Below are positions 12,637 to 36,800 of a stretch of DNA of 64,000 nucleotides, piece by piece (position 1 is the stretch's first letter; each line of letters opens with the position of its first letter). The notes beneath the pieces were generated by a model. The model searched no databases, was not told where the DNA came from, and worked only from the letters and a program-made list of their open reading frames with translations. The DNA is taken from positions 186,001-250,000 of the forward strand of contig JAFATB010000006.1 in the NCBI GenBank assembly GCA_019244185.1, written 5' to 3'. This DNA is from Acidobacteriota bacterium. Lineage in GTDB: Bacteria > Acidobacteriota > Thermoanaerobaculia > Gp7-AA8. The position numbers were made by a program, and so were the translations under genes.

Positions 12637-12882
12637 ATGGCGGCGCGGAGCCCAGCGGTACAGTTAGTTGGAGCACGATTGAGGGAGTTGCGGAAGTCTC
12701 GCGGACTCTCACAGGAACAACTCGGCCATCTATGCGGACTCGACCGTAACTACGTCGGTCAAATCGAGCGAGGCAACCGCAACCCTTGTTTGGACAACAT
12801 CGTGAAACTGGCAAAGGCGCTCGGCGTAACACCCGCAGACCTGTTCAGCCGGTTCGACCTCGACACGATGAGGGATGTATAA
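12637..12882 (+). CDS. XRE-family HTH regulator
   Basis: 81 aa; LRELRKSRGLSQEQLGHLCGLDRNYVGQIERGNRNPCLDNIVKLAKALGVTPADLF. Confidence 0.9.
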   Translation: MAARSPAVQLVGARLRELRKSRGLSQEQLGHLCGLDRNYVGQIERGNRNPCLDNIVKLAKALGVTPADLFSRFDLDTMRDV

Positions 12883-13008
12883 GGGGAATGGGGGTAACTG
12901 GGGCGCGTCCGAACCGCGCTGATGGGAACCGAAGTAGGCGTCAGTTTGTGGAACTGACCAGCCACGCCTCTCAGTACCTGTGACACCAGTTGCCCCCATT
13001 CCCCTTAT
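12879..13008. repeat. IR-bounded 130-bp element (23-bp arms, 1 mismatch)
   Basis: Arms ATAAGGGGAATGGGGGTAACTGG (12879-12901) and CCAGTTGCCCCCATTCCCCTTAT (12986-13008); 84-nt spacer with internal hairpins (AGGCGT...ACGCCT, GTCAGTT...AACTGAC, GCGCG...CGCGC). Confidence 0.75.
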
Positions 13009-13152: not shown

Positions 13153-13963
13153 ATGAGGAGACTGCCTAAATCCACCCGCACCAGAATTCTTGCTGCTCTC
13201 GTCGAAGGTAATTCCATTGCATCCACCTGCCGACTGGTGGGTGTGGCCAAGCTCACCGTACTGCGGCTACTGGAGGAAGTCGGTGAAGCGTGTACGGCAT
13301 TCAGCGACCGGTTCATTACCGGCATTGAATCGCCGCACGTACAGGTGGACGAGATGTGGGGGTTCTGTCAGCAGAAACAGAAGAACGTATCCCCGGAGAA
13401 TGCGGGCGTTCTGGGGTATGGCAACGTCTGGACCTACATCGCAATAGACTCACGGTCCAAACTGGTAATCACGTGGCGTGTGCGGGCATCGTAACGAGCA
13501 GACCACACGTGACTTCCTGCATGACTTGGCGTCCCGGCTGACTGGACCCGTTACGCTCTCTACTGACGGGTTCATGGGATACGTCAATGCGATACCGGAA
13601 GCGTTTGACGGAACGCTGAACTACGGGGCTGTGGAGAAACTGTACGAGCGTAACCGGTACGTCGGTGCGAACTACACGAACCGAGTGGGAAACCCGTCGA
13701 AGATATCCACGTCCCTCATCGAGCGCCAGAACCTCACGGTGAGAATGTCAAACCGGCGCATGACGCGCAAGACGAACGGTTTCTCGAAGAAACTGTCCAA
13801 CCACATCTACCAGCTGGCAATCAACTTCGTCTACTACAACTTCGTCCGCACTCACGCCACCATCAAGACGACACCAGCGCTTGCAGCCGGGATCATCGAC
13901 TACCAGTTGTCGCTTGCCGATATGACCGAGTTGGCAATCTGGAGCGATGTGCAGGCGGCGTAA
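13153..13963 (+). mobile_element. IS1-like DDE transposase, apparently frame-shifted
   Basis: Frame 1 (to 13494): MRRLPKSTRTRILAALVEGNSIASTCRLVGVAKLTVLRLLEEVG...VQVDEMWGFCQQKQKNVSPENAG...NVWTYIAIDSRSKLVITWRV. Frame 2 (13478-13963): GHRNEQTTRDFLHDLASRL...LSTDGFMGYVNAI...STSLIERQNLTVRMSNRRMTRKTNGFSKK...YYNFVRTHATIKTTPALAAG. The two halves are continuous if one base near 13486-13490 is removed. Confidence 0.85.
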
Positions 13964-14084: not shown

Positions 14085-14231
14085 TAACAGGTGGGGTGAG
14101 TGGAACCATCCAAACTCGCGGTGACGACTACTGCTTGCGGGACGACTTTCCGAACGTCGGCGGCAGTTGTACGTCTGTGACACTTTGGCGAACGGATTTG
14201 GTTTGGATGGTTCCACTCACCCCACCTGTTA
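14085..14231. repeat. IR-bounded 147-bp element (31-bp perfect arms), MITE-like
   Basis: TAACAGGTGGGGTGAGTGGAACCATCCAAAC (14085-14115) and its exact reverse complement (14201-14231); 85-nt spacer. Confidence 0.85.
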
Positions 14232-14267: not shown

Positions 14268-14594
14268 ATGACGGTCGAAGAGATACGCGTACAGAAAGCA
14301 CTGGCGATGTTGGAAGTGGAAGAGGCCGAGACCGCCCACGCTGCTGCCAGTGAGCACGCCCACGAGTTGCAAGTGGCAACTAGTGAGGCGATCAGTACTG
14401 CCCTCGATATTGCCCGTCGTTTGCCTGTGCAGGTGGATCGACTGCGCGAGACGTTGGCAGGGATTGATCTGGACGGGCTGTCAGAGGCACAGACGCAGGC
14501 CGAACGGTTTCTTGGTGCCGCTGCGGCCGCCCGAGTGAAACTGCGCGAGTTTCAACTACCCGGACGACCTGTTACAAGTGGATGGGGAAAGTAA
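14268..14594 (+). CDS. small coiled-coil protein
   Basis: 108 aa, Ala/Glu-rich heptads (KALAMLEVEEAETAHAAASEHAHELQVATSEAISTALDIARRLPVQVDRLRETL). Confidence 0.5.
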   Translation: MTVEEIRVQKALAMLEVEEAETAHAAASEHAHELQVATSEAISTALDIARRLPVQVDRLRETLAGIDLDGLSEAQTQAERFLGAAAAARVKLREFQLPGRPVTSGWGK

Positions 14595-14642
14595 ACCAGT
14601 ACCCGATAACCTGCACCGGTGTGAGTTGGCCGCGTTCGGCCG

Positions 14643-14978
14643 CAACGTGCATTGTAGCGACGGCAATCTCTCGCGTTTTCAGATACCAAACCCAGGTCTA
14701 TCGGTGAAGATCATCAAGGATGATGACCGTCGAACGCCCACCGGTATTCATGAAACTGCCAAACTTCTTTTTCGCCCACCCCAGCGCCGATCCCGCAAAC
14801 GCTTTGAAATACCGAGCGTCGTGTTCTGGCACTGCTCGCCGACCGGATCGCGGCCATTAACCGGGTCGCCGCCCGCAAATGTGTAAGGCGTTGAAGAGTC
14901 TTGATAATTCGGATCCGGCGGCACGAATGTGCCGGTCAAGGAATCCAGCCACCGCTCCCTTGCAGACACGCTAGCCAC
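14643..14978 (-). pseudogene. orphan RHS core end + tip remnant
   Basis: RERWLDSLTGTFVPPDPNYQDSSTPYTFAGGDPVNGRDPVG parallels RERWFDAGRGAFLSPDPLGYVDASNLYTFAGGDPVNDRDPSG of the main RHS. After a frame change it reads YFKAFAGSALGWAKKKFGSFMNTGGRSTVIILDD, similar to GEGAWQWAKGAFVGFMNFGGDQTVKLIDT of the main gene. Confidence 0.75.
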
Positions 14979-15003
14979 TTGACTGCATACAATCGCGGCT
15001 CCG

Positions 15004-15540
15004 CTAAAATCGACTACTTCGGCGGTTGCGTTGCATTATTTTGCGGTTCCGCGCTGCGGTGTAGTCTTTACCGTGGTCAACAGAAGGCGAATCTGAAATA
15101 TCCGAATATGGGCCGTCGGCAGCCATCTCAGGGAAGGCACGCACCGGCACTTCTACGCCTCGGACCTGTGTTACGGGCTCATATTCCACAGGTGCAAACA
15201 TCATCGGTATAAAGTCCGTGGCGAAGAATGTTCCCACTGCTATGGCGCGACTGCGATCCGCAGCCGTGATGGTCGTGAAGCCCTGGCCAGGAACGTACAG
15301 GATCTCGCCGTCTGCATCAGCGCGTGCAACCGCCGCTTCGAACGTCGCGATGTCGTTGACCATCGTCCGCTTCGCGAGTTCGTAATATTCTGTCGTGACG
15401 GTCAAATCGGCCATCTGCGTTTCGTAATCGCCGCCAATCGCGCCGCTCGTGTCGTACCACTTCCGCGCTACTGGCACACGAAGCGGCTGCCTGAACGACC
15501 TACGTTCGGTTCTCGTGAAATCGTCATAGACCTTCTTACC
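15004..15540 (-). pseudogene. hypothetical cassette between RHS fragments
   Basis: Protein-like LTVTTEYYELAKRTMVNDIATFEAAVARADADGEILYVPGQGFTTITAADRSRAIAVGTFFATDFIPMMFAPVEYEPV; no independent start. Confidence 0.35.
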
Positions 15541-15564
15541 GCGCCCTTTCAGCATCGCGAACCG

Positions 15565-16733
15565 CTCGCGTTTGCGTGGCGTCGACTTTCGTCTGCGCCG
15601 CGTCATGCGGCCGTTCGCCGTGTAGCTCGCCTGCGCGACTCGCCGATGAGCGTGCCGACCGCGCGTAGGTCTTGACGCTCTTCGGGTTGCCCCAGTCGTC
15701 GAAGTCGGTGACGGTCTTCACGCCGTTCGGAGCGAGCGACGACGTCGCGCGGCCGTGGACGTCGTACGCGACGGCGCTCGCGCTGTGGTTGTCGGCCGAG
15801 TAGACGAGGTTGCCCGCGAGGTCGTACGCGTACTGTTCGACGATCGGCGTGCCGCCGGTGGTCGTGGTGCGCTTCGCGATTCGTCCGAGCCCATCCAGTT
15901 CTTCCGTGACCACCGCGCCGCCGGGCAGCATGCGCACGATCTTGCGATTGGTGAGGTCGTAGTCGGTGGTCGTGGTGACGGAGGTGAGGCCCTCGCCCAC
16001 CGCGACGTTGTTCGTCGTCGACTGCTTCACGCGACCGAGCGGGTCGTACGCGAGCGACGTGGTCACGCTGTGGCCGTCCTGCTTGTGCGTGGTCTCGGTG
16101 AGGCGTCCGTTGAGGTCGTACTTGGACGACTCCTCGAGCGAGAGCGACGGGCCGGTGGTGACGCTCGACACCGGACGGCGCCAGCCGTCGAGGTTCGTGA
16201 GCGTCGAGACGCCGCGCTCCTCGTCGACCTTGATCTGATCGGGCCCCGGATACGCGAACTTCGTCTGCAGGCCGGAGGCATCGACGAGCTCCGGCATCGC
16301 GCGCGCGTACTCCGGCGCGGTGGCGTCGCGGAACTTGTAGCTGACTGACGCGTTGCCGCCGGCGTCGGTGCCGCCCGTGCTCGTGACGGTTTTCGGCTGG
16401 CCGTACGCGTCGACTTCGACCGTCGTCGTGATGGCGTCGTTCGTGGCCGCGACGCTCTTCTTCATCGCGCTCGGCTCGGAGGTATGGATCGTGTCGCTGC
16501 CGATGCTGACGCTCTCGAGATACGCGGGACGCGGATTCGACGATGCGTCGTCGTAGCCGAAGGTCCGCTTGATCGGCGTCGCGCCGCTGCCGCTCGTTTC
16601 GCTGGTGAAGAGCACGAAGCCGGGCGCGCCGGGCTCGATCGATTTGTAGGTGTTCGTCGTCGTGCGGATCGTGCTCGTGGCGCCGATGCCGAGAGCTCGC
16701 TTCGTCGTTTGTCGTCCTTTGAGCATGCGCCGC
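15565..16733 (-). pseudogene. duplicated RHS-repeat fragment
   Basis: Track ORF 15536..16726 is near-identical to residues encoded at ~22190-23376 of the giant RHS gene, with small indels and point differences. Confidence 0.9.
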
Positions 16734-16740
16734 GGCCTTC

Positions 16741-17271
16741 CTAATTCAAGTCGTACTCTGCGCCCGAACGAACGCTCGCTGTAAATCGGACGCCGCTTTC
16801 CATTAACTCTTTGCTGATGGTCCGACGTAATAGGATTTCACCTTTGAAAAGCGGCGTTTGATTTCTCGCTCGAACGATTTTGAAGGGCGCCAAAGCGTTC
16901 GCGTCGTCAGTTGCGGTACCGACTTGACCCTGATGACGGCAACGTCGCCGAACCGACCGCCTGACTGATGACCACCGTTGCCGGATTCTGCATTTGATCG
17001 ATTGCACACTTCACTCCGCCACGCCGCTGCGGCACTTCACGGATATTGATCCGCTGGGTCGCAGCCGCGACGAGGTAACTCCGCTCCTGTGCTTGATCAC
17101 CTTTCTGCGCGACTCCGAATGACTCGATAGTTCGACGGAGTTCGCGGTAAACAGTTCCGGCTTATCGAACAACCCGGTAAGAACATACTGCAGTCGTTGC
17201 TCGGCTTCGATCGCAGCCGCTGCCGTTTTCAAGTCTTCATTCACCGCGAAGAACACGATCGATTTGCTCAT
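16741..17271 (-). pseudogene. degenerate immunity-protein-like gene
   Basis: MSKSIVFFAVNEDLKTAAAAIEAEQRLQYVLTGLFDKPELFTANSVELSS; with frame changes continues ...VPQRRGGVKCAIDQMQNPATVVIS...IKRRFSKVKSYYVGPSA...KELMESGVRFTASVRSGAEYDLN. Confidence 0.6.
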
Positions 17272-17280
17272 CTCACCTCA

Positions 17281-17484
17281 CTACTGTTTCGGCTTCGGAA
17301 TCAACACCAGGTGATCACCCGGCTTTGCTGGCGAATGCGCGTCGCGCTTGGTGGCTTCGCGTGTTGTTGGCGTGATCCCATCCGCACGCGTATCCACGGT
17401 GTTGATCCGGAGCGTCCGACCGTTCTTCGTGGCCGTGATGTCACGCCATGACGAACCGCGTCGCGCTCCTCCGGGTCCAGGCAA
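17281..17484 (-). pseudogene. displaced RHS toxin-tip C-terminal remnant
   Basis: WRDITATKNGRTLRINTVDTRADGITPTTREATKRDAHSPAKPGDHLVLIPKPKQ; lies directly upstream, in the minus orientation, of the immunity-like remnant. Confidence 0.5.
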
Positions 17485-18050
17485 ATACTCCTCTGGCGCA
17501 CGTCCGCCACCGTACGTTACCGTCCACCCTCTTGCTTACAGCTCGTTAGTAATCTGCGCGATCTGCTCGCGCGTCTCAGGGCTGCCAAGACCGCAAGTCG
17601 AGCAAAGATCCCCGCTAAGAACGCTTGCGCTGTAAATTCTCCAGCCTCGCGCTCTTGCTGTTCGGGGCTGATATTGCCGGCGATAGCATGCACGCAAAAA
17701 CTTGTTGTACCCCGATGCAGTCGTTGAGCGCGATGAGAGAGACCATCGCGGTACTGCGATCCTGGCCGAGCAATTCGCTTTGCGCCGTCCGAGTCAGTCT
17801 CGTCGATAGTTCGCGGAGTCAGGTCGATGCCGCGCTCTGCTTTTACTTACCCAGCAAAATCCCTTCGGGCAGCTCGCGGCGGCTGATGGCACGGCTTAAG
17901 TGGTCGTAAGAGGCCATCTAGGGCCTTATGTTGTCACAATGTACGGCACTTCGATCCAATCATACTTTGGCGACGTCGCGCTATACCGACCCGGGGCAGG
18001 CAGATACGCATATGCCGTGGTTGGCCCAACGTAGTGGGTGCCGAGGAGCT

Positions 18051-18521
18051 TTACTTAACGGTATTTTCGTCCCAGGCCGCGTTGAAAGCGCGATGCAGCA
18101 AAGGATCATCCGGCCCAGTAGGCAACCATCCGTCCCTGACGTCCGATGAATTGAACCACTGCCATACACGATGGCATTGCTCCTCATAATACTCGCCGAC
18201 AAGGGTCATCCAATCTGAAAATGCTTGGACTCGGGCGTACTCGGCGCTTGAGTCACCGCGCCAACCATCGGGCAGGTACTCGCGCAGAAACCTAGACAAG
18301 GTATCGACTGCGAATGCCCGCATGTCGTCTGACATTTCCGCTTCCTCTTTCAAGAGGAGCTTCAACTGAATCGGCGCCACGGAACTTGAGAGAACCTCAA
18401 TCATCTGATCGAAGGTTTCAGTTCGATGCGACCGAGCAAATTCTGTCGCGCTGCGGTATCCAAGTGCACGCACCCTCGACCGCAATCGTTCGTGCCAGTC
18501 GCCATCCCAAACGTTTGTCAT
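18051..18521 (-). CDS. cognate immunity protein of the RHS toxin
   Basis: 156 aa; ATG (18521) overlaps the RHS stop TGA (18518-18520) as ATGA; acidic, soluble, immediately after a polymorphic toxin tip. Confidence 0.8.
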   Translation of the reverse strand: MTNVWDGDWHERLRSRVRALGYRSATEFARSHRTETFDQMIEVLSSSVAPIQLKLLLKEEAEMSDDMRAFAVDTLSRFLREYLPDGWRGDSSAEYARVQAFSDWMTLVGEYYEEQCHRVWQWFNSSDVRDGWLPTGPDDPLLHRAFNAAWDENTVK

Positions 18522-18880
18522 TGTCGAAATGGGACAAACGAGCCTGAAAGGCCATAGTCCCTCATCATTTGCTTGCCAACATCGAAAACTTCAGCAAACG
18601 TCAATGCCCGCCCAAGAAGCTTTTCGCGCTGCGAGATGCGGGACATGATCTGTCGATTCCATTCGCCTTCCCATTTGCGACCAAGGCGATAGTTCCCGCC
18701 TCCGTGAATGGCTTGATGAATCGCTTCGTCCAACTCCAGAGTAAACTGATCAATATCGCGACCCCCTGTGAAACCACGGACCTCAAAGAACGCTCGAAAT
18801 TCTTGAGGAAAAACATGGTGACGAGGATTGCGGACCACGCCGGCACCGCGCGCGCCAGTCTCAGTCACCGCATCCGATTC
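18518..18880 (-). other. RHS C-terminal toxin tip (HH-type, DUF2380-like nuclease-like domain)
   Basis: RHHVFPQEFRAFF...DQFTLELDEAIHQAIHGGGNYRLGRKWEGEWN; His-rich pattern of AHH/DUF2380-type proteins. Confidence 0.6.
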
Positions 18881-21800
18881 TGGGCCCTCCCCCAAGGAAT
18901 CGTGCACTGAACTCGCGAGCACAATCGTCGAGACCATCGGGCCACTTCGTGCGCTACGCGCGATCACTCCCGCCGTGGGCAATACTACTCCCGAGCTTGT
19001 CGCAAGTGCCGGTGCAGGAGTTGTCGGCGTGTTCATCGCGGACACTGTCCCGCGCACAGCTGTATAGCCATCAAGCAACGCTGGTGCAGCCGCGCGTGCT
19101 ATGTCTTCTTTGCATCCACTGCTCGAAGCGGCGTCGATTGCCTTTACTCGCTTGTCAACCGCGCCTCCAATAACATATACTGGCGTACCTTCGCCACGTT
19201 CGACAGCCGCGATGGCAAGTGACAGGCTGCGTCGTTCCTGACGACGAGCGTCTGCGGCATTCTCATGCACCCATCCCCCATACCCGAATGTTAGGGTATC
19301 GATGAGTTTCACAGTTTGATCCCCACCAAAGTTCATGAATCCGACGAATGCACCCTTAGCCCATTGCCAAGCGCCCTCCCCTGCCGCTTGTAATGATGCA
19401 AGCGTTGTGTTCTTGCATGGCTTCTGCAGCCCTGAAGGGTCTCGATCATTTACGGGGTCGCCCCCAGCGAAGGTATAAAGGTTTGAAGCGTCGACGTACC
19501 CCAGCGGATCCGGCGACAGGAACGCCCCCCGCCCCGCATCAAACCAGCGCTCCCTCGCGAACACGAGTCCCGTCCCTACCTCCTCGAACGGCAAGGCCTG
19601 GAACGACGACATGAGGATGCTGCGACCCACTGCCGGCTCCGCTGGTGAGCCCAAGGCGGCGAGGGAGGGGGCGGCGTAGGGGGTGGTGGTGGGGTCGGGG
19701 GCGGCGAGGAAGGACGTGAGCGTCGCGAGGGACGCGCGGTATTCGACGGGGAGGGTGGGGGAGGTGTGGATGGGGTGGGCGGTGGTGGCCCAGGTCGGGG
19801 GCGGGAGGATGGGGGTGGCGGTGGACCACGCTTTGGCGCGGAGGGTGTTGGTGACGGCAATCGAGAGCGATTGGACGTCGCCGGTGGGGGACGTGAGCGC
19901 GGTCCACTGGGTGGGGGTGAGGGTCCAGTGGATGGTGTTGGGGTCGGAGAGCGTGGAGGTGACCGTCGCGGTGCGGACGACGTTGCCGCTCGCGGTCACG
20001 GCGGCGAGGCGGGTGCCGGTGGCGAGGGTGGCCTCGTCGAGGGCTTCGGTCGAGCGGATCGAGACCTCCACGGCCGTGAGGTTACCACTCGCGTCTTTGG
20101 TCTTGCTCAGCGTGATGCGATCGATGGCGGCGCCGGCGAGGCTGCTTTCTTCTTCGCCGTAGGCGCCGTCGACGACGGTGCGGGAGATGACTTTGCCGTC
20201 GTCGCCGAGGATGAGCTGGAGGTTGCCGTTGCCGGCTTCGTCGAAGACGGGGTAGAAGTGATGCACGTCGGGCGTCACGCCGTCGGTCACGGTCACCTCG
20301 AGCGGATCGTCGTAGGCGGCGTCGCCGTGGATGAGTTGGCGGAGAAGACCTCCGTTGGCGTCGACGGACGGGTTCGCGCTCGCGCCGGCTTTGTAGACGG
20401 AGACGAGACGGTCGGAGATCGGGTCCCACACGAACGTCGTCTCGGCGGGCAGGCCGTCGGCGAAGAGGACGGCGTCGCGGTTCTCGAGCTTCCAGTCGCT
20501 GTCGAGCGGCGGCATGGAGATGGAGCTCAGCTGCGCATACTCGACGCGGCGGCCGACGATGCGGTTGCTCGCGGCGTAGTCGTAGCGGAAGCGGCGGATG
20601 GTGAGTGACGGCGTCGGGATTTCGGTCGCGGTGATGATGCGGCCGCGGTCGTCGAACTCGTACTGATAGCGGCCATCACCCGTGCGCTCGGCGCCGATGT
20701 AGGTGAACGTGTGCGACTCGCCGTTCGCGGCCACGGTGCCGATGCGGTGTCCGGACAGCTCGTCGAAGTTGAGCGTCGGCGGCGCGGCCGGTTCGACGGA
20801 CGGCGACGGACGCTCGAGCTGCGTGCGGAAGCCGGCGTCGGTGACGTGCTCGATCGACGGATTGCTGCTGTCGTCGTGCGCGGTGACGGTCGTGAGCAGA
20901 CGGCTGCGCGCGTCGTAGGAGTACTCGTTGAAGCGTGTATCGGCGGAGATGCCGAGGAGCTGCTCGCGTTTGATCTGCACGCCGTCGTACGTGATGGCGG
21001 AGCCGCCGACGACGTTGCCGCCGGCGACGATGCGCAGCTCGGAGAGCTGTCCCGCGTTCGCGGTGTCGTAGGTGTACTGACGCTCGATGACGGCCGACGC
21101 GCTCGTCGTCAGCGTACGCACGTTGGGGCGGCCGGCATTGCGGTAGTCGGCGGTGAGCAGCGGCATCGGCGACGGCGCACCGATGAGCGTGCGCGTCATC
21201 GCGCTCACGTTGCCGGCGGCGTCGTGGCTCTCCCCTACCTTCTGCGTCCATTGCGTCGCGCTGGTGGGAAAGCCGCTGTAGGACGGCATCGTCCACGACT
21301 CGCGTTCGCCGTGCACGTTCCAGGTGTGATCCTGCTCATAGGAATCGAGCACGGTCGCCGAGCCGAAGCCGGAGTGATCCTTGAAGCGCGTCTGCTTCGT
21401 GCGGCGCGGGCGATCCTCGAAGTCGTAGTCCTCGAAGACGAGCGCGGCGTCGCGCGTGCGCCATGTGGTGATGCGGCCGGCGGCGTCGTAGTCGAGCTTC
21501 TCGATGAGCTCTCCGCCGTTGCGGCGGATCTCGGTGAGCTGGTTCTTGTCGTCGTAGGTGTAGTTGAAGAGGCGGCCTTGGCGGTCCTTCATCGACGCGA
21601 GGCGCGAGCCGTCGTAGGTCCAGGTCTCCTGCGTGCCGTCGGGATAACGGCGGACGCTCGGACGGCCGAGGAGATCGGACTCGGTCGTTTCGGTGAGGCC
21701 GGTGCCGGTGCCGCCGTCGGACTCGTCGCGATACGACGTGTCGGTGCCGGCGGCGTGATAGCCGTACTTCACTTCGGGGGCGCCCGGCTCGCGTTTCGAG

Positions 21801-24800
21801 AGCAGGTTGCCGCGCGCGTCGAAGTGCTGCCTCGTCGACTCGCGCGCGGGCGGCGCGTCGGCGGTGACGTTGCCGTCCTCGTCGTAGCTACGCTTCCACT
21901 CGAGCGCGCCGGCCTGGTTCCGCGTCGGATTGCCGAGCGTGTCGTAGTCGTACTGCATGTCGATCGGCGAGGTCGCGCCGCGCTCGGTGAGCGTGCCGTT
22001 CTTGACCATGCCGCCGGTGTAGTCGGAGGCGAGGTACTTCGAGAACTCGGTCGTGATGGTCGACGTCGTGCCGGCGCCGGCGATCGAGGACTTGAGGCGT
22101 CCCGCGTCGTCGAAGGCCTGCTTCGCGGCGCGTCCGCTGACGGCGGTCGACGTGATGCGGCCGGCGCCGTCCCACTTCATCTCGCTCTCGCGCGTTTGCG
22201 TCGCGTCGACTCTCGTCTGCGCCGACGTCATGCGGCCGTTCGGCGTGTAGCTCGCCTGCGACTCGCCGATGAGCGTGCCGACCGCGTCGTAGGTCTTGAT
22301 GCTCTTCGGGTTGCCCCAGTCGTCGTAGTCGGTGACGGTCTTCACGCCGTTCGGCGCGAGCGACGCGGTGGCGCGGCCGTGGACGTCGTAGGCGACGGCA
22401 CTCGCGCTGTGGTTGTCGGCCGAGTAGACGAGGTTGCCCGCGAGGTCGTACGCGTACTGTTCGACGATCGGCGTGCCGCCGGTGGTCGTGGTGCGCTTCG
22501 CGACGCGTCCGAGTCCGTCGAGTTCTTCGGTGACGACGGCGCCGCCGGGCAGCATGCGCACGATCTTGCGATTGGTGAGGTCGTAGTCGGTCGTGGTGGT
22601 GACGGAGGTGAGGCTCTCGCCCACCGCGACGTTGTTCGTCGTCGACTGCTTCACGCGACCGAGCGGGTCGTACGCGAGCGACGTGGTCACGGTGTGGGCG
22701 TCCTGCTTGTGCGTGGTCTCGGTGAGGCGTCCGTTGAGGTCGTACTTGGACGACTCTTCGAGCGAGAGCGACGGGCCGGTCGTCACGCTCGACACCGGAC
22801 GGCGCCAGCCGTCGAGGTTCGTGAGCGTCGAGACGCCGCGCTCCTCGTCGACCTTGATCTGATCCGGCCCCGGATACGCGAACTTCGTCTGCAGGCCGGA
22901 GGCATCGACGAGCTCCGGCATCGCGCGCGCGTACTCCGGCGCGGTGGCGTCGCGGAACTTGTAGCTGACCGATGCGTTGCCGCCGGCGTCGGTGCCGCCC
23001 GTGCTCGTGACGGTTTTCGGCTGGCCGTACGCGTCGACTTCGACCGTCGTCGTGATGGCGTCGTTCGTGGCCGCGACGCTCTTCTTCATCGCACTCGGCT
23101 CGGAGGTATGGATCGTGTCGCTGCCGATGCTGACGCTCTCGAGATACGCGGGACGCGGATTCGACGACGCGTCGTCGTAGCCGAAGGTCCGCTTGATCGG
23201 CGTCGCGCCGCTGCCGCTCGTTTCGCTGGTGAAGAGCACGAAGCCGGGCGCGCCAGGCTCAATCGATTTGTAGGTGTTCGTGGTCGTGCGGATCGTCGCG
23301 CTCGTGGCGCCAATGCCGGAAAGCGTCGCCGTCTCCAGCATGCCGTCGGGCACATACGTGAAGAGCATGCGCCGCGTCAGCGACTCGGTCGGCGCGCCGG
23401 ACGGCGTGACCGCGGCCGGCAACGTGCCGAACGGCGTCGTCACCGCGGCGACGTTCGTCTCATCGAGCTGCCTCACGTGCGCGCGGTCGGTGGTGTAGTT
23501 GCCCGGCTGCGGCGTGAGCTCGTAGACGCGCTCCTGGCCGAGAACGTCTTTGGTCGTGGTGTGCGTCGCGTCCGTGTAGGTGAACGTGGCCGACTCGCCG
23601 GTCTTCCACGTCTGCGTCTTCACCTTGTCGCGATCGCTGGTGCTGTACGCGAACGCGACGCGCGGACCCTCGCCCATCGGATCGGTGATGGACGTGAGGT
23701 TCGGCGCGAGCTCGAGCTTGTCGTTGTACGTCGATGCGGGCGTGCCGTAGCCGTATTGCGTAGTCGGACGTCCGGTGCCGGTCTCCGGCAGCGTCGCGGT
23801 GATGAGGCGGCCCGCGTCGTCGTAGTCGTAGTCGACGCGCCCGAGCCAGCTTTCGATCGACTGCAGGCGTCCCGCTTTCAGTCCCGTGCCATCGGGGAAG
23901 TACATGAGGCGCGACACGCGGCCGACCGGATCGATGACCTGCGCGAGGCGGCCGCTGAGATCGTAGAGATAGCGGACGACGTTGCCGGCGTCGAGCGCGT
24001 ACGCGTTCGGCGCGAACTCGTCGGTCTCGTGCACGAGGCGTCCCATCGAATCGAACGCGCTGATGCGCGCCTTCTGATCGACGAGCACCCAACCACGATC
24101 GGTGCGCGAGAGCTTGAGGAAGAGTCCCTTCGGACGCTGGTAGAAGCCGGTGGCGTTGTCGAGCGTGAAGCGCCAGATCTCGCCGGCGCCGTCGCGATAT
24201 TCGACGTCGCCGTTCGGCAGCGCGCGCAGGCGGCGGAAGATCGACGACTCCCACCCCATACCGACCGTGCCGCCGATCGTGCGCGAGCGATACGTGCGAT
24301 CGAACAGGGCGTTCCAGCCGTTGCGGCCGCCCGCATCCATGTCGAGCGCGGAGGTCTCGACTTCGCCCGAATGGAGATACGTCGTCTCCTGCAATGCGCC
24401 GCCGGCTACGGGAGGCGCCTGCGCGGCGACGAGCACGCTCGGCGGACGCACGGTGTCGGCCATGATGGTGGCAAAGCGCGCGGTGAAACGGTTCTCGCGT
24501 CCGAGGTAGGCGTAGCTCGTGCCGGTGAAGACGTTTTGCGCGCAGTCGGTGCCGGCGATGCAGAGATCGGGGCGGATCGAAATCAATCGGCCGTTCGTGT
24601 AGAGCTCCCACACGCGATCCGCTTCGGTCTTGCCGGCGAGATGCGGCGGGCGCGCACACGACGAGCAGCCGCTCGCGGTCTGCAGCGCGGCGAGCGTGGT
24701 GCCCGCGGGCGGCGTCGGCCACTGATAGTTGATGCTGGCGCGCGGATCGGCGATCGCGACGATCCACGGCGAGACGAACTTGTTGAAGCCTTTCTGATGG

Positions 24801-27800
24801 CGCAGCTGCGCGGCCATCGAGTCGGGCACGACGCGCTCGAGATAGAAGTTCGCGTCGGCGCGCGGATCGGGCGCGCCGGAGCGATCTTTCAGACGCAGAT
24901 GCGCGCGCGGGAAGCCTTCCGGCATCTGCTCGGTCGTCGCGCCGAACACGCGCTCGCTCTCGATCGCCGCGACGAGCTTGTTCGCGCCGCCGCTCAGCGA
25001 CTGCGTCATCGCACCCGGCAGCGACACTTCGACGCGGAACGCGGCGAGCGAGCCCTCGGGACCTTTGATGACGCCCGCGGGCGGATCGACGCCGAGCGGC
25101 ACGAGGCCGCCGACTTCCGCGAGACCGTTGCCGTCGCCGACGTCGGCTTTCAGCTGCACGCGCGGATCGATGGCGGCGATGACGCTGGTGGTCTTCTCCA
25201 GCACTTTGCCGACGTAGACGTAGCCGGTGTCGGCGTCGACGACCGGCGCGAGCGTGCCCGACGTGACGCCGGGCGCGGACTTCCAGACGATGCGCGGATC
25301 GTCCGCGCCGACGCCGTACGTGCCGCTACCGTACGTTGCAGTGGACGCGAGCGACGCGGCCACGGTCTTGAAGAGCGCGTTCGCGGGCAGGAGATTGCCC
25401 GTCGAATCGAAGCGTTCGTCGATGCGCGAGAGATCGACGAGCAGCACGCGACCTTCGCCGTCGACGACGGTGGCGAGGTTCGTGCGCGGAATCGCGCGCA
25501 CTGCGGCGGCGCCGCCGGGGATCCAGATGATGTCGACGAGATGCGCGTTCGCAAGCGGGTCGTACGACGGCACCATCGTCGGCGGCGTGCCGCCGATCTC
25601 GACGACGAGCAAGCCGTACTCGTAGCCGGGGACGAGCATGTAGTCGCGCACGACGCGCGTGCCGGCGGTCGAGCCGCGCTGGCCGCGCGGCGGCGCGCCG
25701 GTGACGGACGTGCCGCTGAGCGCCTTGTTGTCCTGCGCCTCGAGCGTCCAGTGGTAGTACGCGGCGCCGGTGAAGCGCGGCGTGGGCTGGCGTCCCGCGG
25801 CTTCCGCGAACTTCGCGCGGAACGGCACGAGGCGCGGATGATCGTGGACATTCGTCGCGGGAGGATCGCCGGGCGTGAAGTAGGTGTTGCGCAGCACGAG
25901 ACCGAACTGCGCGCGCTCGCCGCACGTGTCGGCGTCGCTCGGCGCCGCGGCTTCCGCATCGTTCGCGGGCGGCGCGATCTTCAGATCGAGAATGCCGCGG
26001 CGCTGATCGACGGCGAAGATGTCGAGATCGGGCGAGCCGTCGCGCGTGATGATCGTGGCGTCGGGCGAGAGCGTGAGATCGGGGATGGCGTACGTGTCGA
26101 TCGGATCGCCGCACTCGCTGCGCAGCGCCGCGTTGGTCGCGCGGATCTGCTCGCGCAGCGGCTTGTAGTTCGCGGGCCGCGTCGGATCGTCGTTCGATTC
26201 GACGGCGTTCAAATCGAACACGGCGACGCCGTAGCCGAACAGCGAGATGACGCCGTACGTGCGCTGGTTGCGGATGACGTGGATGCGGTCGTTCTTCCGC
26301 GCGACGATGCCGTTGATCGCCGCGGGCACTCCCGGATGCGCGTCCGCCGACCAGCGCATGTCGAGCGTTTCGTTCTCGACCGTGATGCGCTGCAAGCGAT
26401 ACGGATAGCCTTCCGACATCGCCTGCTGGACGTTGAAGACGCTGAGGTCGTCCGCGTCCGCCGTGGGATCGAACGCGAGCGTCAGATCCTCCGTGTCGTC
26501 CTGCAACAGAATCTGCATCTTGCGCGGCAACGCTTCCGCGCGATCGCTGAGGATCGTCGCGCTGGCGAGATCGAGACCGACCGTCGAGCCGACGCGCCAG
26601 CTGACGATCGCGCCCGCTTTGCCGGTTACCGCGCGCGGGCCCGGCGTGCCGTTCGGCAGGAAGTCTTCGAGGCGGAACGAGCGGACGATGCCGAAGAGAC
26701 CCGAGAGCGCGGTCGCGTAGACGCGGCCGTGACGATCGCTGGCGAGCGCCCAGTATTCGTCGCCGCCGCCCGCCGCGACGCCGATCGGCTGCGTCGACGC
26801 GCCGAGCGACGCGGGGTCCGCGACGTCGTACGCGACGACGCCGCCGTCGAGCGCGGTCATGAGCAGCACGTTGCCGTTGAGCGCCTGATCGCGGATCGCG
26901 CCCTTCGTGAGATCGAACGACGAGACGAGGCCGCCCGGCTCGCGCACGCGGAAGTAGAGATAGACCGGCTCGGCGAGCGGCGCGGTGGGACCGCTCTCGC
27001 CGAGGATCTGACCGATGCGCAGACCGGACTGGTCTTCGACGGTGCTGGCGATGCCGAGGCGATAGCGCATGCCGCGTTGCAATGACGCGGGAAGATCGAC
27101 GAGCACGCGGCGTCCGCCGGAGTCGACGCGGAAGTGCGCCTGCTCGGTGACGGCGGTGTAGACCGGCGCGGCGGCGGCAGGCTCTTTCGCGATCTCGACG
27201 CTGAAGCGCGTGCGGAGGTACGCGTCGATCGCGTCGTCGGATGCGTCGGAGCCGACGGCGATCGGCTCGCTGAAGACGACGGAGAGCGAGGTGTACGGAT
27301 CGACTTCCTTTTCTTCGACGAGCAGCAGCACGCGATCGCCGAGCGCGCCCGCGACTTTCAGCCCGTCGCTGCGCTTGCGGTCGATTGCGCCGTTCGTGAC
27401 GTTGAAGAGCGTGACCTGCAGATCGGCCGGCAGCGGCGTCGACGAGTCGACGGCGGTGATCGAGTCGCCCTCGAGCTTGACGACGAAGTTGCGGATCGAG
27501 ACGGGCGTGTCGCTGGCGATGAGGTCGAGCGTTTCGACGCGGAACGGCGTGCCGTACACGGGATACGGACCTTCGCGATCGGGATTCGGATTCGGAAGGA
27601 TGGCGGCGGCGCCGGGATCGCCGTTCGGAATCGGATCGTAGACTTTCGCGAAGCCCTGCAGTCCGGTCGCGGCGTCGACGCCGACGACCTGGAAGGGCTT
27701 GTTCGTCAGGACCGGAATGGCGATCGTGCCGCGCCGCTCGGCGAGATAAAAGTGCGCGGCGTAGAGCGACTGGAGCGTGTCCCAGAAGAGGTCGTAGCCG

Positions 27801-30800
27801 GCCTGCAGGCCGGTCATCGCGCCCCACGCGACGGACGAGCCGTCGGGCACGCGGATGTCGAGGACGGAGTAGACGCCGCTGCGGTTGACGCCGAGCAGGT
27901 AGTTGCGCAACGCGGAGCCGGTGAGCACGGCGTTCGACGTCACGGCGCGTTTCTGCGTCGTCTGCTGCGTGCCGGACGTCGCGTCGGCGGTGACGAAGCG
28001 GCCGTTGTCGACGCGAACGCTGTCGACGATCATCACGCGCGGACCGCGCACGGAGAGTCCGAGGTAGCCGAGAAGGAAGTTGCGATTCGCGGTGTCGGTG
28101 CCGGCGGGAACCGGGAGCTCGACGTCGAGGCGCTTGTTGGCGACGCCGTCGAATTTCAGCTCGAGGCTGTTCGCGTAGCGCAGCTCGTCGTCGAAATGCG
28201 GCACCGCGGCGAACGCGGTCTGCTGACTCGGCGTCAGCGTGACCATCGTCGCTTTGTCGAACGCGCCCGCGGGAACGCTGACGGTGAGGCCATCGGGCGT
28301 CGTGTACTTCGTATCGAGATCGGCGGGCGCGAGGAAGCCGCGGCCGTCGTCGGTGATGAACGGCGTGAGGCGGAGGATCGCGATGATGGCGTGACTGACG
28401 GGATCGAGAACCTGCAGATCGATGATGTCGTCGACGCTGATGCGGTCGCGCGCATCGAGATGGCCGGCGTCGAACGCGAACGAGCCGTCGGCGGCGACGG
28501 TGGCGTCGTAGGTGACGACGAAGAAGTGATTGCGGCGCACGGCCACGGCCTGAGCGCCGCCGGGCAGCGCGCCGGCGGTACCGCTGATGCGCGACTTGCC
28601 GTTCGCGTCCGGAATGGTGATGTGAATGCGGTCGGCGTGAATCGTGGCGTTCGACGGCGTGGCGCGCGTCGAGAAGGTCGACGTGGAGGTCTGGCCGAAC
28701 GGCGTGCCGGTGGTCGAACGGATCGTCGGCAGCACCGCGATCGCGTACGTCGACGCCGCGCGCAGCGGATCGGTCGCGTTGAAGCGGACGCTGTTCGCGC
28801 CGCCGAGGGAGACCGTGCCGGCGAGCGGCGCATTCGTGGTGAGGTTCGTGACACGGATGCCGTTCGCGACGGACGCGGCGTCGATGGACGTGTCGAACGT
28901 CGCCTGGACGACGAGCGGCGCCGTGACGTCGAGCTCCGCGCCGTCGGCCGGAGCGATGGCGGTGAGATGCGGCGGCTGCGCGGAAAGCGTGAGCGCGCCG
29001 AAGTCGACGAAGGTGTCGGGATCGGGGCTGCCCGTGAAGGCGGATGCGGCGCCGTCGCCGAGCGCCGCGGTGCGCGCCACGAGCGAGAACGGCGCGGCCG
29101 GTTTCGCGGCGACGGGGATGACGAAGACGCCGTCGATGCGCGTGAGATCGCGCACGCCGAGAACGGAGGACATCGGCGCGCCGATGCCGGAGGTGACGCG
29201 CGCGTTCGCGACCGCGGCGCCGCCCGCGCTGCGCACGGTGCCGAAGGCGTATGCGATCGGCGCGTCGGCGACGAGGACGACGTAGCGGCCGTCCCGAACG
29301 ACGCCGTCGAGCGGCAGCTGCGTCGAGACGATCGGGCGCGAGACGAAGACGTTGGAGGTTGACGACGACGATGCCGACATCAGGGCCACGACGCGGAACA
29401 GCACGCCGAACGGCGTCGATGGGAGCACTTCCGCGACGATGACCTGCGCGTTCGCGCTCGCGGACGGCACGGCGATGGTGACGCGCGCGGGCGTGAGGAG
29501 CGCTGGCGCGTGGATCGCGACGCCGTCGGTGGGCGGCGGCTCGTTCGCGCGCGTGAGGCTGAAGGTGAAGCCGGCGGCGACGCGGAAGCCGGGCACGGCG
29601 CCGAGCGACGCGAGCTCGTTGTCGGAGAGCGAAGTCACGGAGGCGTGCAGCGGCTCGGGGGTGGCGGCGGCGGGGACGTCGAGGAGCACGTTGCCGTCGC
29701 CGGGGACGCGGCCGCCGTCCGCGCCCAGGAGCGTGCCGCGGTCGATGCGGCCGGGATAGTCGACGATGCGGATGTGATCGACGCCGTCGCGAAGGATCAC
29801 CGCCTGCGCCTGCGCGGTCGGCGCGAGGTGGAAGTCGGCGACGCCGTCGGTGCCGGCGAGATTGCGATAGATGAGGAGGTCGGTCGCGAACGGCGGATCG
29901 ACGAGCGTGCGGCCGTCGGCGAGGTTGAGCTGCTCGTCGATGAAGGCCTGCACCGCGGTGCCGCTCGGATACGGCTTCGCGCCGTCGGTGGTCAGCGTGG
30001 CGACGGTGCGGCCGCTCGGCAGCACGGCATTCGGATTCAGCGTGAACGAGCGGCCGGTGAGGCGGCAGGTATCGGGCGTGGTGAGGCACGGATTGGCGAC
30101 GCCGGTGAGCGCGGCGCCGGCGCGGGCGACGAGGCTCGAGTTCTTGTCGGCATAGACGAGCGCGTAGTTGCCGGCGGCGTCGATGTCGAAGGACGCGCGG
30201 CCGTCGGAGCCGACGTTTGCGGCGGGGACGACGACGCGCCATTCGTCGGCGCCGCTGTCGTAGTGCACGAGCGCGAGCGACTGCGCGGCGGCGGTGATCG
30301 CGTTCGCGTCGACGACGAAGGTGAGACGCGCGCCGGGCAATGCGATCGGTGACGACGCGTCGTCGATGGCGATCTCCGCGGACGCGAGCGGCGCCCAGCC
30401 GAGCGGCAGAAGACCCGCCAGCGACTGGCCGCCGACGGAGGTGAGGCGCACGCGGTGCGTGCCGGCGAGCGACGTCACGGCGAGCGCGAGCTCGACGCGT
30501 TTGGTGACGGCGGTGTCGGCGCCGTGTTGCAGCGTCAGCGCGGCGTTGTTCGCCTGTTTCTCGTCGCCGCCTTTGGTGAGGCGGATGTCGATCGGGACGA
30601 CGCCGGCGCCAGCGGGGACGACGACCTGGCGCCAGACGGTGGTGTAGCCGGGCGCGCCGGCGCGGACGGTGTAGGCGCCTTCAGGCAGCGCGTACGAGTA
30701 GCGTCCGCGATCGGAGGTGGTCAACGTATTGACTGCCGCGATCTCGAGCTGCGCGCCGGCGAGCGGGCGGCCGTTCGTGGCGTCGTAGACGGCGCCGGAG

Positions 30801-33800
30801 ACGTAGCCGTTGCCGCGTCCCGCGGTCGTGTCGGTGCTGTACGTGAACGTCTGCGTGTAGTCGGCGGTGAGCGAGGCGCCGCCCGCGTCCTTCACGCTCT
30901 TTTTGACGGTCAGGGTGATGTTCTTCGCGGGCAGCGAGGCGAAGGTGATGGTCGCAGTCTGGCCGCCGGTGTCGAGTGCAACGGTCCCGGTGAGCGCGCT
31001 CTCCCCTTCCGGCGTCACGAGCAGCGTGCCCGAGGGCGACGCGATCAGCGACGCGAGGTCCATCGGCTTCGAGAACTGGATGGCGAGCGTCTTCGCGTTG
31101 CGGTCGAGCGTGGCGCCGACGACCTGCAGCGTGGCGCAGCTGAGGCGATAGCAGAGCGCGCGCTCGGCGGAGAGGCTGCCGTCGGCGCCGAGCTCGCGCA
31201 CGCGCACGAGGTGATAGCCGGTCTGGCCAGAGAACGTAAGCGCGGCCTTGAACGCGCCGGTGTCGGAGGCCTGCGCGGTGAGCACGACGCCATCGACTTC
31301 GACGCGCGCCTGCGCGTTCGGCGAGACGCGGCCGGTGATCGTGGTGCCGCTGAAACAGCCGGTGGTCGTGGCCTCGTCGAGAATCGGCGCGTTCGACGGC
31401 GCGCTGCCGCCGGCGGTGAAGGCGAACGTGTACGGCGACGCGAGCGCGCCCCCGGCGACGTCGTGCAGCGATGAGGCGATGGTGGCGGTGTAGCGCACGC
31501 CGGCGCGCAGCGGCTGGTGCGGTGCGAACGTGATCGCGTCGCGATCGACGAAGACATCGCCGTCGACAGGGCCGTCGACGCTGCCGTCGGTGCTCGTCAG
31601 CTGGAACGCGTTCGCGGCGGTGGCGCCGTCGAGCGCGTGATTGAAGAGCACAACCAGCGCGACGCCGCGCTCGACGTCGGCGGCGTCGTTCGCGGGGAAC
31701 GACTCGCGCACGGCCAGCGGCTCGGCGAAGCGGATGACGCGCACGGCATCCGTCGCGTCGCGCGCGTCGGGCGCGGTGACGCGTGCAATCAGCGGGGTGA
31801 TGCCGGAGCTCGACGCCGAGAGCGTGACGTCGGCGGCGAAGGCGTTCGCCGTGAGGGTCGCGTTGACGCCGTTCACCTGCACGGCCGAGCCGGCGTCGCC
31901 GGTGAAGGTGCCGGCGACGCGCACGGCGCCGCTCTGCGTCGACGGCAGGTAGGTGTTGTCGCGCGGCGTGTCGATGGCGATCGACGGGCCGCCGGCGAGC
32001 TGGGTCACGTTCACGCGCGCGGTCGTCTGCGTGCCCGCGGCGTTGCGCGCGGTGGCTTCGATGACGGTGACGGCGGCGCTGGCGACCGGCACGCTCGCCG
32101 TGAACGTGCCGGTGGTGTCGGACTGCGGCGTCGCGGTGGCGGCGCGCGATGTGCCGCCGGCGCTGACCGTGATCGTCGCCGGCTCGACGTTCGCGTACGT
32201 GCCGGTGACGTCGATCGACGACGCCCCGCTGTCGCTGCCGGTGAGCGGCGCGGTGATGCTGAGTTGCGGCGCGGCGGTGAGCGCGCGCACGCGCGTGGTG
32301 GCGATGCCGACGCGCGCCGAGCGCGTCTTCGCGCGCACGGTGAGGACGCTGAGTCCTGGCGCGACGGGGACGTTCGGAACGCTGAACGAATGCGAATCCG
32401 CGCCGTCGTCGGCGACGGTGAATGCGATGCCGTTGACGTCACCGGAAACGACGCCCGCGCCGACGGTGCCGCTGACGGTGACGCTGCTGGTCGTCACGCT
32501 GCTGTTCGCGGCAGGCGACGCGATGGTCACGACCGGATCGTCGTAGCGATAGAGCACGAGCGTGACCGGCGCGTCCGTGGTCGGATTGCCCGACGCGTCG
32601 GCGCAGCGGATGGTGACTTCGTTGCGGCCCGGCGCGAGCGTGGCGTCGCCGCAGAACGAGCCGGCGGCGACGGCGGCCGCGAGGCCGTCGATCAGCACGC
32701 CCGCGGCGCCGCCGGAGCGGCCGCTGATGTGCACGTGCTCGCTGAAGACCGCGGCGCCGTCGGCGGGATCGAACTGCCCGAGGCCGCAGCCGGATACCGT
32801 GGCCGCATTGCCGATGAAGAAGACGCGATCGACGCGCGTCTCGTCGCCGGCCGCGTCGCGCGCGGTGGCGGTGAGCGCGTGGCCACCGTCGGCGAGCGGC
32901 GTGACGCCGGCGGCGACGAGGTCGCCGTCGACGCTGAGCGTGGTCACGAGGCCGTCGGGCTGGTTGTCGGTGACGTCGAGCGCGAGACTCGGCGAGGCGG
33001 CAAAATGCGCGCCGTCGGCGAGGTCGGCGCCGTTCGCGGTGACGCGCAGCACCGGCGGCGTGAAGTCGGCGGTGACGTGGACGGAGACGCTGCTCACCTG
33101 GCCGCGATCGTTCGTGAGCGACGCGGTGATCGTGTTTGCGCCTTCGACGAGCGGGAAATCATTCTTGCGGAACGCGCCGGCGGGATCGAGCGCGACGGTT
33201 GCGCCATTGATCGTGACGCCGCGCGCGGCGGCGGGCGTCAGCACCTGGCCGGCGACGAGCGTCGTCGGACGATTGGTCAACATCTTGTCGACCGGCGCGA
33301 AGAGCAGGAGCCCGTTGCCGCCGCTGTCGCGCACGACGTCGACGGAATCCGACGCGCTGTTGCCGGCAGCGTCGGCCGCGATAGCGACGATCGTGTTCGG
33401 ACCGGCGTCGAGCGGCACCGTCGCGCTGAACGCGCCGCCGGCCAGCGTCGCGGCGACGCCGTTCACGGTGACGCTGACGACGTCGTGGCCGCTGACCGTG
33501 CCCTGCACCTCGACGCGGTCGGCGTCGATCACCGCGTGATCGGCGGGAGTCGTGATGGTCACGACCGGCACGCTGCGATCGATGCGGAACGTGGCCGTGA
33601 CCGTCGCGGACTCGTGGCCGAACGCATCCTTCGCCTTCGCCGTCAGCGTGTAGTCGCCGTCGTTCGTCACTTCGCTTCCCGACGTGAACGGCGCGCCGTT
33701 CAGCGTGGCCGCGATCGTGGCCGCGGAATCGTTCGAACGAATGACGGGCGTGACCGCGCGGCGGTAGACCTGATGCGGCGGGATCGGCAATCCGTTCTCG

Positions 33801-36800
33801 ACGATCTCGACGGACGGCGCCGCGCCGCGGATGGTCAACGTGTAGACCATTCGCGACTGGTTGCCCGCCGCGTCGATCGCGAGGAGCGCGAGCGTGTTCA
33901 GCCCTTCCTGCAGCGCGACCGGCAGCGTGAAGTGCACGCCGTCGACCTGCGCGGTCTGGCCCGTCGATTCGATGACCACGGCGGCCGGCTCGCTCAGCGT
34001 GCCGGTCAGCGACGCCGGCTTCTCGCCGACGGTGGCGTTGTTCGCGGGATCGATCGACGTGATGAACGGCGGCGTGCGGTCGATCGTGAAGGCGACCACC
34101 TTCTCGTCGGAGACGTGGCCCGCGCAGTCGCGCGCCGTCGCGCGCAGCACGTGCGGCGCGGGGAGCTCGTTCGCGATCGCGGTGCCGGAGACGTACGGCT
34201 GGCCGTCGAGCGTGACCGTCAGCGCGGCGCCGGCTTCGTTCGCGCGGACGTCGAGCGCGATCGGCCGGTTCACCACCGGCGCGGCGAACGGCGCGCCGCC
34301 TTCACGCACTTCGACGACGGGCTTCGTGCGATCGATGGAGATCGCGACCGTGGCCGCGGCGGTGTGCCCGGCGAGGTCGACCGCCTCGACGCGGATCGTG
34401 AATTTTCCTTCGTCCGGCGCGGGAATCGTCGCCGTGAACGTGCGGTGGTCGTCGCCGACCGTCGCGTTGACGACCGCCGTTCCCATCGTCACCTTCACGC
34501 TCGCCAGCGACACCTCGGATACCTGCCCGCGCACTTCCACCGCGTTCGTATCGAGGCACGCGTTCGCGGACGGCGCCTCGATCGTCACCGCCGGCGCGAG
34601 CGTGTCGAGCGTCACCGGAATGGCGATGGTCGTGTTGTTGCCGGCGCGGTCGAAGCCGATGGCCTCGATCGTGTTCTCGCCTTCGAGCAGCTCGAGCTCG
34701 ACCGGCGTCGTGAACTTGCGATCGGCGATGGTGGCGTCGATGCCGTTGACTTCGATGCCGATCGCGTCGTCCGCGTCGCCGCTGACGAGGATGCGCGGCG
34801 TGGTGAGGCTCGTGTTCGCGAGCGGGCTCGTGATCGCGATCGCCGGCGGCGTCTTGTCGATGGTGAACGTCACCGGCGGCACATCCGTCGAGAGACCGAC
34901 GCGGTCGGTCACCCTCACTTTCAACGTGTACGTGCCTTCGGCCGTGACCGGCGTCTCCAGCGTGTACGGCTGATCGTTGAGCGTGGCCGTCGTCGTCGTA
35001 TCCGTGGTGTCGGTGATGACCGCGCGCGGCACGACGTCGCGGTTGAAGAACTGGCCGTCGGTCAGCTCCTTTTCGCCTTCCATGAGCGTGACCACCGGCG
35101 CGGTGCGATCGATGTAGAAGACGATCGCGGGGATGGTCGTACTCCACGCCAGCTCGTCGGTGACCGTCGCGGTGAGCGAGTACTTTCCTTCCGCGGTGAT
35201 GTCACCGCCGAACGTGAACGGCTGTTCGTTGAGCAGCGCGGTCGTGGTCGTCGGCGTCGTGTCGCTGACGGTGAGCTCGGGGTGGACGTTGCGGTTGAAC
35301 GCGCCGCCGGCGAACGGCTGGCCGTTCTCCGTCACCGTCACGACCGGCGCGGTCTTGTCGATGGTGAAGGTGATCGGCGGAACGACGGTTGCGTGCCCGA
35401 GGTGATCGGTGACGGTGATCGCGAGGACGTGATCCGCGAGCTCGGTGGAGATGGTGCTGTCGGGCGTCCACGGCGCGTTGTCAAGCGTCGCCGTCGTGGT
35501 CGTGGCGGTGAGGTCGTCGATGTCGAGCTTCGGCTCGACGTCGCGATTGAACTTGCCGCCGGTGAACGCCACGCCGTGCTCGAGCACGTGCACGACCGGC
35601 GCGGACTTGTCGATGATGAACGTGATCGGCGGGAGCGTGGTCGTCCAGTGCGCGGCGTCGGTCACCGAGACCGCGAGGACGTGCTCGCGCTCGTCCGCGA
35701 TCGGCGTCCCGCTCGTCCACGGCGCGCCGTCGAGCGTCGCTTCGACCGTCGTCGCGCTGATGTCGTCGACGGCGATGATCGGCGCGATCGTGTCGCCGAA
35801 CTCGTCGCTGGTCGCGAGCACGCGGTCGCCCACCTTCACGCTGACCGCGGGCGGCGTCGTGTCGACCACGAAGTGCACGGTGGGAACGGTCGTCGACCAG
35901 TTCGCGGCGTCCGTTACCTTGATATCCAACGAATGCGCGCCGTCGCCGGCGATGGGCGTGCCGAGGATGTAGGAGTTGCCGTCGAGCTTCGCGTCGATCG
36001 TGTACGCGGTGAGATCGGAGACCGCGACCTGCGGCAGCGCGGGATGCGCGAGCAGCGCGCCGCTCACGAACGGCGTACCGTTCTCCGTGAGCGTTACGAC
36101 CGGCGGCGTCTTGTCGACGGTGAAGACGATCGGCGGCACGTTCGTGACGAACCCGAGCTCGTCGGTGGCCTTGATGACGAGCACGTGGCGATCTTCGCGC
36201 GTGACCGTCGTCTCCGACGTGAACGGTGCGTCGTCCAGCGTGGCCTCGATCGTGACGTGCGTGGTGTCGTTCGACTCGATCTTCGGCGTAACGTCGCGGT
36301 TGAAGATCGTGTCCGACACGAGCGGCGCGCCTGACTCGGTCACGGTGACGACCGGCGCCGATTTGTCGATCGTGAACGCGATCGGCGGCACCACCGTCAC
36401 CCACCCCAGCTCATCCGTCACCGTCACATTCAGCGTGTAGACGCCCTCGGAGGAGATCTCCTGTCCCGAGGTCCACGGCGTTTCGTGCTGGCCGTCGCTG
36501 AGCGTGGCGTTGGTGATCGTCTCGGTGAGATCGTCGATGCGAACGAGCGGCGTGACGGAGCGCTTGAACTTGCCGCCGGTGAACGGCTGATCGGCGTCGT
36601 CGAGGTGCTCGACGACGTGCACGACCGGCGCGGTCTTGTCGATGACGAAGTGGATTGGCTCGAGCGCGCGCTCGTTGCCGACGTCGTCCTTCACGTGCAC
36701 GACGAGCGTGTAGCGCGCGTCGGCCTCGATGGCCGTGCCGCGCGTGTACGGCTGGTCGTTGAGCGTGAGCGTGTACGTGGTCTCGGTGAGGTCGTCGGCC

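Follow-up and report, generated by a model that had tools for sequence, protein, structure and literature searches.

An intact gene for a giant RHS protein (RHS1) is followed, in the 64,000-nucleotide stretch of an Acidobacteriota contig that we analyzed (JAFATB010000006.1, positions 186,001 to 250,000; hereafter the window), by a string of broken RHS pieces. This raises the question of whether these pieces are ends that the gene once carried and lost by replacement, or whether they reached this place by another route. The initial annotation had recognized a displaced-tip architecture downstream of RHS1 and its immunity gene, with all pieces in a common orientation, and our analysis bears this out: the remnants at 14602-17592 are all RHS-related, and all lie on the minus strand, as RHS1 does (Table 1). 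When we aligned them with homologues, looking for a lack of RHS-tip or immunity homology, the homology was clear, and all array pieces scored above the tblastn baseline (27 bits, the highest score among 20 shuffled versions of the region). We consider it likely that the locus holds displaced RHS tips in a decayed array behind a giant RHS gene, a case of the known Rhs C-terminal displacement. This would extend a process known from other bacteria to the giant RHS genes of a little-studied group.

Table 1. Features of the RHS1 locus and of the related G009 cassettes. Positions refer to the window unless a locus is named.
Feature	Position	Strand	Remarks
RHS1, giant RHS protein	18518..40447	-	7309 aa, intact; Ig-like domains, RHS repeats, linker, DUF2380-type tip
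RHS1 core segment matching the core fragment	22191..23318	-	
Putative immunity gene of the current RHS1 tip	18051..18521	-	156 aa; homologue adjoins homologous tip in G239
Stretch without recognizable homology, between current pair and first remnant	17593..18050	-	
Unit 1, toxin tip remnant	17281..17592	-	67% / 55% identity to RHS C-termini in L006 / L007
Unit 1, immunity remnant	16741..17271	-	At least three reading-frame pieces; matches tip-adjacent gene in L006 and L007
Internal RHS-core fragment	15567..16734	-	Copy of RHS1 22191-23318, 96% DNA identity
Unit 2, RHS post-DPxG linker	15004..15566	-	Lacks its core end and tip
Unit 3, core-end stub with DPVG and RHS1-type linker	14602..14978	-	Frameshifted, no tip
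ORF beyond unit 3	14268-14594	+	
MITE-like element	14085..14231	.	Perfect 31-bp terminal inverted repeats
IS1-family-like transposase	13153..13963	+	Broken into two frames; NCBIfam transpos_IS1 E 4e-8, below cut-off
YTCWTTGAAAAYC sites, G009 contig 61	L040 6082-6095, 7450-7463, 8776-8789; L041 7155-7168, 8450-8463		

The giant RHS gene and its putative current toxin/immunity pair

The DPSG junction of RHS1 lies at residue 7003 (nucleotide about 19441), and the linker and DUF2380-type tip follow behind it. In a genome from another family of the same phylum (G239, locus L090), the homologue of 18051-18521 is found directly 3' of a homologous tip. This makes 18051-18521 a credible immunity gene, and the comparison supports a putative toxin/immunity pair formed with the current RHS1 tip. 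Between this pair and the first remnant, no tblastn match at E 1e-4 was obtained with the ORFs of the fetched loci. The base composition of the locus is uneven, with a GC content of 68% in the RHS1 core and the core fragment and of 53-62% in the other array pieces. Directly upstream of RHS1, a second giant ORF of 7310 aa (40496-62428, minus strand) carries Ig-like, carboxypeptidase-regulatory, and F5/8 type C domains and has no RHS repeat match.

A tip remnant and its broken immunity gene

The toxin-tip remnant reported initially is present (128 bits in tblastn), with its extent corrected from 17281-17484 to 17281-17592, and it contains a single internal stop, an in-frame TAA at 17536-17538. 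Intact relatives of this tip sit on RHS proteins of Rhizobacter sp. OV335 (L006, 67%) and of an Acidobacteria MAG (L007, 55%). In these two loci, the gene after the tip (170 aa and 182 aa, respectively) matches 16741-17271 piecewise and in several frames (best E-values 1e-7 and 1e-12; the immunity pieces reach at most 54 bits). We therefore assign this stretch, which had been described as a frame-shifted immunity-like remnant and does fall into at least three frames, to the unit 1 tip as its own immunity partner. All comparisons used the tip and immunity pieces in their present, unmended frames. A profile of the tip run over 396 genomes of the phylum returned two further convincing occurrences (G336 and G189) and one marginal one. 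In G336, the tip relative is carried by an RHS-HINT protein and the adjacent gene encodes a different protein; in G189 (L074), a 204-aa frame beside a short tip piece resembles the unit 1 immunity family by eye.

Neither the tip nor the immunity remnant matched a Pfam or NCBIfam family above the cut-off, and a sequence search of solved structures gave nothing convincing for either. The predicted fold of the tip has modest confidence (pLDDT 65); its order of elements (helix-strand-strand-strand-helix-strand) is that of the PD-(D/E)XK core fold, and its best matches in the PDB are Hjc Holliday-junction resolvases (E about 0.01, TM 0.38-0.47), which suggests a predicted nuclease of the PD-(D/E)XK (restriction-endonuclease-like) class. 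No core fragment was found in front of the tip.

An internal fragment of the RHS1 core

The RHS-repeat fragment noted earlier at 15565-16733 is confirmed, with its borders moved to 15567-16734 (679 bits in tblastn against RHS1). It is 96.2% identical to the RHS1 core at the DNA level, and these two are the only copies in the genome. The homology begins 6 bp past the stop codon of the unit 1 immunity gene and ends abruptly at 15567, with three small indels near the 3' end of the fragment. Over 325 codons, fragment and RHS1 differ by 24 synonymous and 7 nonsynonymous changes (dS 0.106, dN 0.0096, omega about 0.09), while drift of the fragment since the split would give ~36 nonsynonymous changes (P about 4e-9 versus neutral). 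The 24 synonymous against 7 nonsynonymous differences indicate that the fragment was still a working allele, and no decaying copy, while it diverged, and that it broke late, unless gene conversion with RHS1 homogenized it. The old core allele would thus still bear the mark of selection on a working gene. For the seven amino-acid differences, the orthologue sites are too variable to assign the changed copy. A listed ORF at 15536-16726 was rejected as RHS coding because its frame differs from the true RHS frame.

Two further post-core units and the far end of the array

The 'unknown cassette' at 15004-15540 in the initial annotation is in fact an RHS linker. It shares 50-58% identity with the sequence that directly follows DPxG in three related genera (G009, G010, and G017), with different sequences coming behind, and on this homology (177 bits in tblastn) we identify it as an RHS post-core linker common to several RHS ends. 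The homology spans about 15142-15566 (local alignments up to 15615), which leaves a short tail at 15004-15141 without recognized homology. Neither a core end before the linker nor a tip behind it was found, no immunity gene was detected for this unit, no Pfam or NCBIfam family matched the linker above the cut-off, and plasmid records held no copy of it. Homologues of array ends on RHS proteins elsewhere are thus available for the unit 1 tip (L006, L007, and G336) as well as for the unit 2 linker.

For 14643-14978, where a core end with linker and tip had been described, the core end (14835-14978) and the linker, which extends to 14602, hold up, and the tip does not: tblastn with the ORFs of the fetched loci recognized none after 14602, and no immunity gene was detected. 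At the protein level, unit 3 is 54% identical to RHS1 residues 6962-7027 and 37% identical to residues 7020-7094. Its core end (69 bits against RHS1 and up to 60 bits against the core ends of relatives in tblastn) is closest, at 71%, to a shorter RHS-ended gene in G012. Core end and linker are joined at DPVG and frameshifted after it; the corresponding junctions of units 1 and 2 are lost. Beyond the mobile elements that follow (Table 1), a small helix-turn-helix regulator is encoded at 12637-12882 (plus strand), and behind it, at 12880-13008, comes another short element bounded by terminal inverted repeats. The array end of the window yielded neither an integrase nor a tRNA.

RHS ends in related genomes

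Long RHS genes in six relatives (G009, G010, G011, G014, G017, and G018) have cores with 31-43% identity to that of RHS1, and their similarity to RHS1 is lost at the DPxG region or immediately behind it, where the ends differ; with cores this dissimilar, the genes are too distant to show an end-replacement event. Three of them (G010, G011, and G018) carry a homologue of the window's upstream flank gene on the RHS contig, and this gene is absent from the only other genome examined from the window's genus. Downstream of RHS in G010, G014, G017, and G018, no second core end was found within 4.5-7 kb, a search in which decayed ones could be missed, and most contigs of the relatives end close to the RHS core ends.

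One contig of G009 holds five orphan stub-tip cassettes, intact counterparts of the array in the window. Their core stubs are about 86-93% identical to one another over about 100-190 bp and then continue into different tips, with a small same-strand frame behind four of the five. Each stub is preceded, 40-93 bp before its R-x-RW, by one copy of a boxA-like motif, YTCWTTGAAAAYC, which occurs five times in the 4.9-Mb genome (reversed control, 0). The motif resembles TTCTTTGACAAC, the likely boxA of G009's own 16S leader, and one may guess that it works as a boxA. At the array in the window the motif is absent, the one inexact match in the window being as expected by chance. Its other occurrences in relatives fall within unrelated loci and were set aside as chance. 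The same G009 contig also carries three tyrosine recombinases and a tRNA gene with a partial copy (L040 4698-14742, L041 8600-8770), like an integrated island.

Displacement and its alternatives

What can be seen directly is that three post-core units lie behind the current one, that the unit 1 immunity gene is broken, and that an allele of RHS1's own core sits between this immunity gene and the unit 2 linker, so that the order tip, immunity, old core allele, other end is kept here. We propose that the C-terminal toxin end of RHS1 and its immunity gene would be exchanged together by recombination in the core. The incoming core-tip-immunity piece would shove the old end downstream, and the latter would decay because it has neither a start nor a delivery part. 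Specifically, the core fragment and the unit 2 linker may represent an older RHS1 end that was displaced on the entry of unit 1, perhaps when a circle integrated through a single crossover. Integration of a circle by crossover in the core was proposed for enterobacterial rhs loci, in which dissociated ends have been described as lying in strings (Jackson et al., 2009; PMC2935791). On our reading of this model, a new tip should come first, then its immunity gene, then leftover core, and finally the old end, and the window shows this succession (unit 1 tip and immunity, core fragment, unit 2). The current pair stands ahead of unit 1, which implies one more replacement event: the current tip would later have displaced unit 1, and deletions and frameshifts would have eroded the remainder. 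It is unlikely that working proteins are made from the remnants. The initial estimate of at least three replacements is right as a count of displaced units, of which there are three. As a count of events it is plausible and not proven: the core fragment is the one piece that connects an event with a gene bearing the RHS1 core, and units 1 and 3 could be orphan cassettes.

Some features count against displacement. One is the result for G010, G014, G017, and G018, whose long RHS genes had no second core end in the downstream stretch covered. Moreover, unit 1 is not preceded by a core piece, the core end of unit 2 is missing, and that of unit 3 has just 54% protein identity to RHS1, whereas the cores within an enterobacterial locus are reported to be identical (Jackson et al., 2009; PMC2935791). 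Units 1 and 3 may accordingly never have been joined to RHS1, having arrived as ready-made orphan cassettes, for instance in the array of an integrating island, and decayed where they are. The island-like G009 contig, with its five orphan cassettes, three recombinases, and tRNA gene with partial copy, would fit such an arrival, as would the missing core of unit 1 and a unit 3 core end that is far from that of RHS1 and nearer to the G012 gene. We nevertheless regard it as the less likely course, given that the core fragment connects one or more units with a gene that has the RHS1 core and that the array end of the window lacks a detectable integrase or tRNA. More speculative, and in our view rather doubtful, is a wider scheme in which the RHS ends of this family travel as cassettes (boxA-like antitermination element, core stub of almost constant length at ~46 codons, tip, and immunity gene) in tyrosine-recombinase-island arrays from which the giant RHS genes draw their ends; the boxA-like element would then serve read-through of the stored cassettes by RNA polymerase, and the window would be a decayed supply.

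The core fragment itself could have been copied locally from RHS1 by a mobile element or by repair, as a stray duplication with no part in displacement. Its 96% identity to the one other copy in the genome and the mobile elements about 1.3 kb away would suit this, but a non-coding copy should drift, yet 24 of the 31 changed codons are synonymous, and the fragment, oriented like RHS1, is flanked by an immunity stop codon on one side and an RHS linker on the other. Even though repeated gene conversion could mimic the synonymous excess, such a duplication is highly improbable. It is also very unlikely that the array, in place of a series of displaced ends, is what decay has left of a second full-length RHS gene that stood in tandem and had its own tip. 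A paralogue would be a diverged coding allele, just as the core fragment is, but here a tip and immunity gene precede the fragment, two post-core units with two linker types come behind it, and no RHS N-terminal part was detected.

Comparison with known systems

Displacement of RHS1 ends, the reading that we favor, has its closest parallel in the Enterobacteriaceae (Jackson et al., 2009; PMC2935791). There, too, dissociated ends and core pieces are strung downstream of an intact rhs gene in the same direction, the GC content of the core exceeds that of the tips, and the ends are mutually unrelated. The present locus differs in the size of its host gene (about 7300 aa), in the decay of its array, in an internal core piece of about 1.2 kb that stops well short of DPxG and has lost its 3' side by deletion, and in one core end (unit 3) that is much diverged instead of identical. 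The orphan rhs module of Salmonella Typhimurium LT2 (Koskiniemi et al., 2014; PMC3967940) likewise has a toxin end with an immunity gene downstream of the main gene, together with an about 95% identical core stretch that is usable for recombination in Salmonella. That orphan is intact and can fuse to the main gene, whereas the array here is broken: a functional module has intact tip and immunity frames, and here the tip contains a TAA and the immunity gene is spread over at least three frames. With stops, frameshifts, and a deleted core end, no simple crossover would restore it. Polymorphic toxin systems in general (Zhang et al., 2012; PMC3482391) share the toxin-immunity order, cassettes that recombine with a constant 5' part, and immunity remnants behind the current pair; in contrast to these, neither the tip family nor the immunity family of unit 1 is recognized by a Pfam or NCBIfam model, and the cassettes are no longer intact. 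From the locus, a family of tips can be paired with its family of immunity proteins, and a linker used behind the RHS core can be recognized; Pfam and NCBIfam had no match for any of the three in our searches.

Other carriers of RHS ends

Orphan core stubs in four genera start at a similar point, immediately ahead of the core-end R-x-RW motif, and the sequences upstream of them are unrelated (L066 4241, L046 5807, the stubs of L040 and L041, and 14960 in the window); the L046 stub may be cut, as this locus reaches the contig end. We also observed a second, small vehicle for RHS ends, namely proteins of about 560-680 aa (L044 4688-6365, on contig 26 of the window's own genome, and L051 at about 10.7-12.8 kb) in which a hydrophobic N-terminus and about 250 aa of other sequence are followed by an RHS core end, linker, and tip only. 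Finally, an RHS core-end match on contig 3 of G059 (about 400617-400784) falls within an open frame that the search tool gives as 27,346 codons long.
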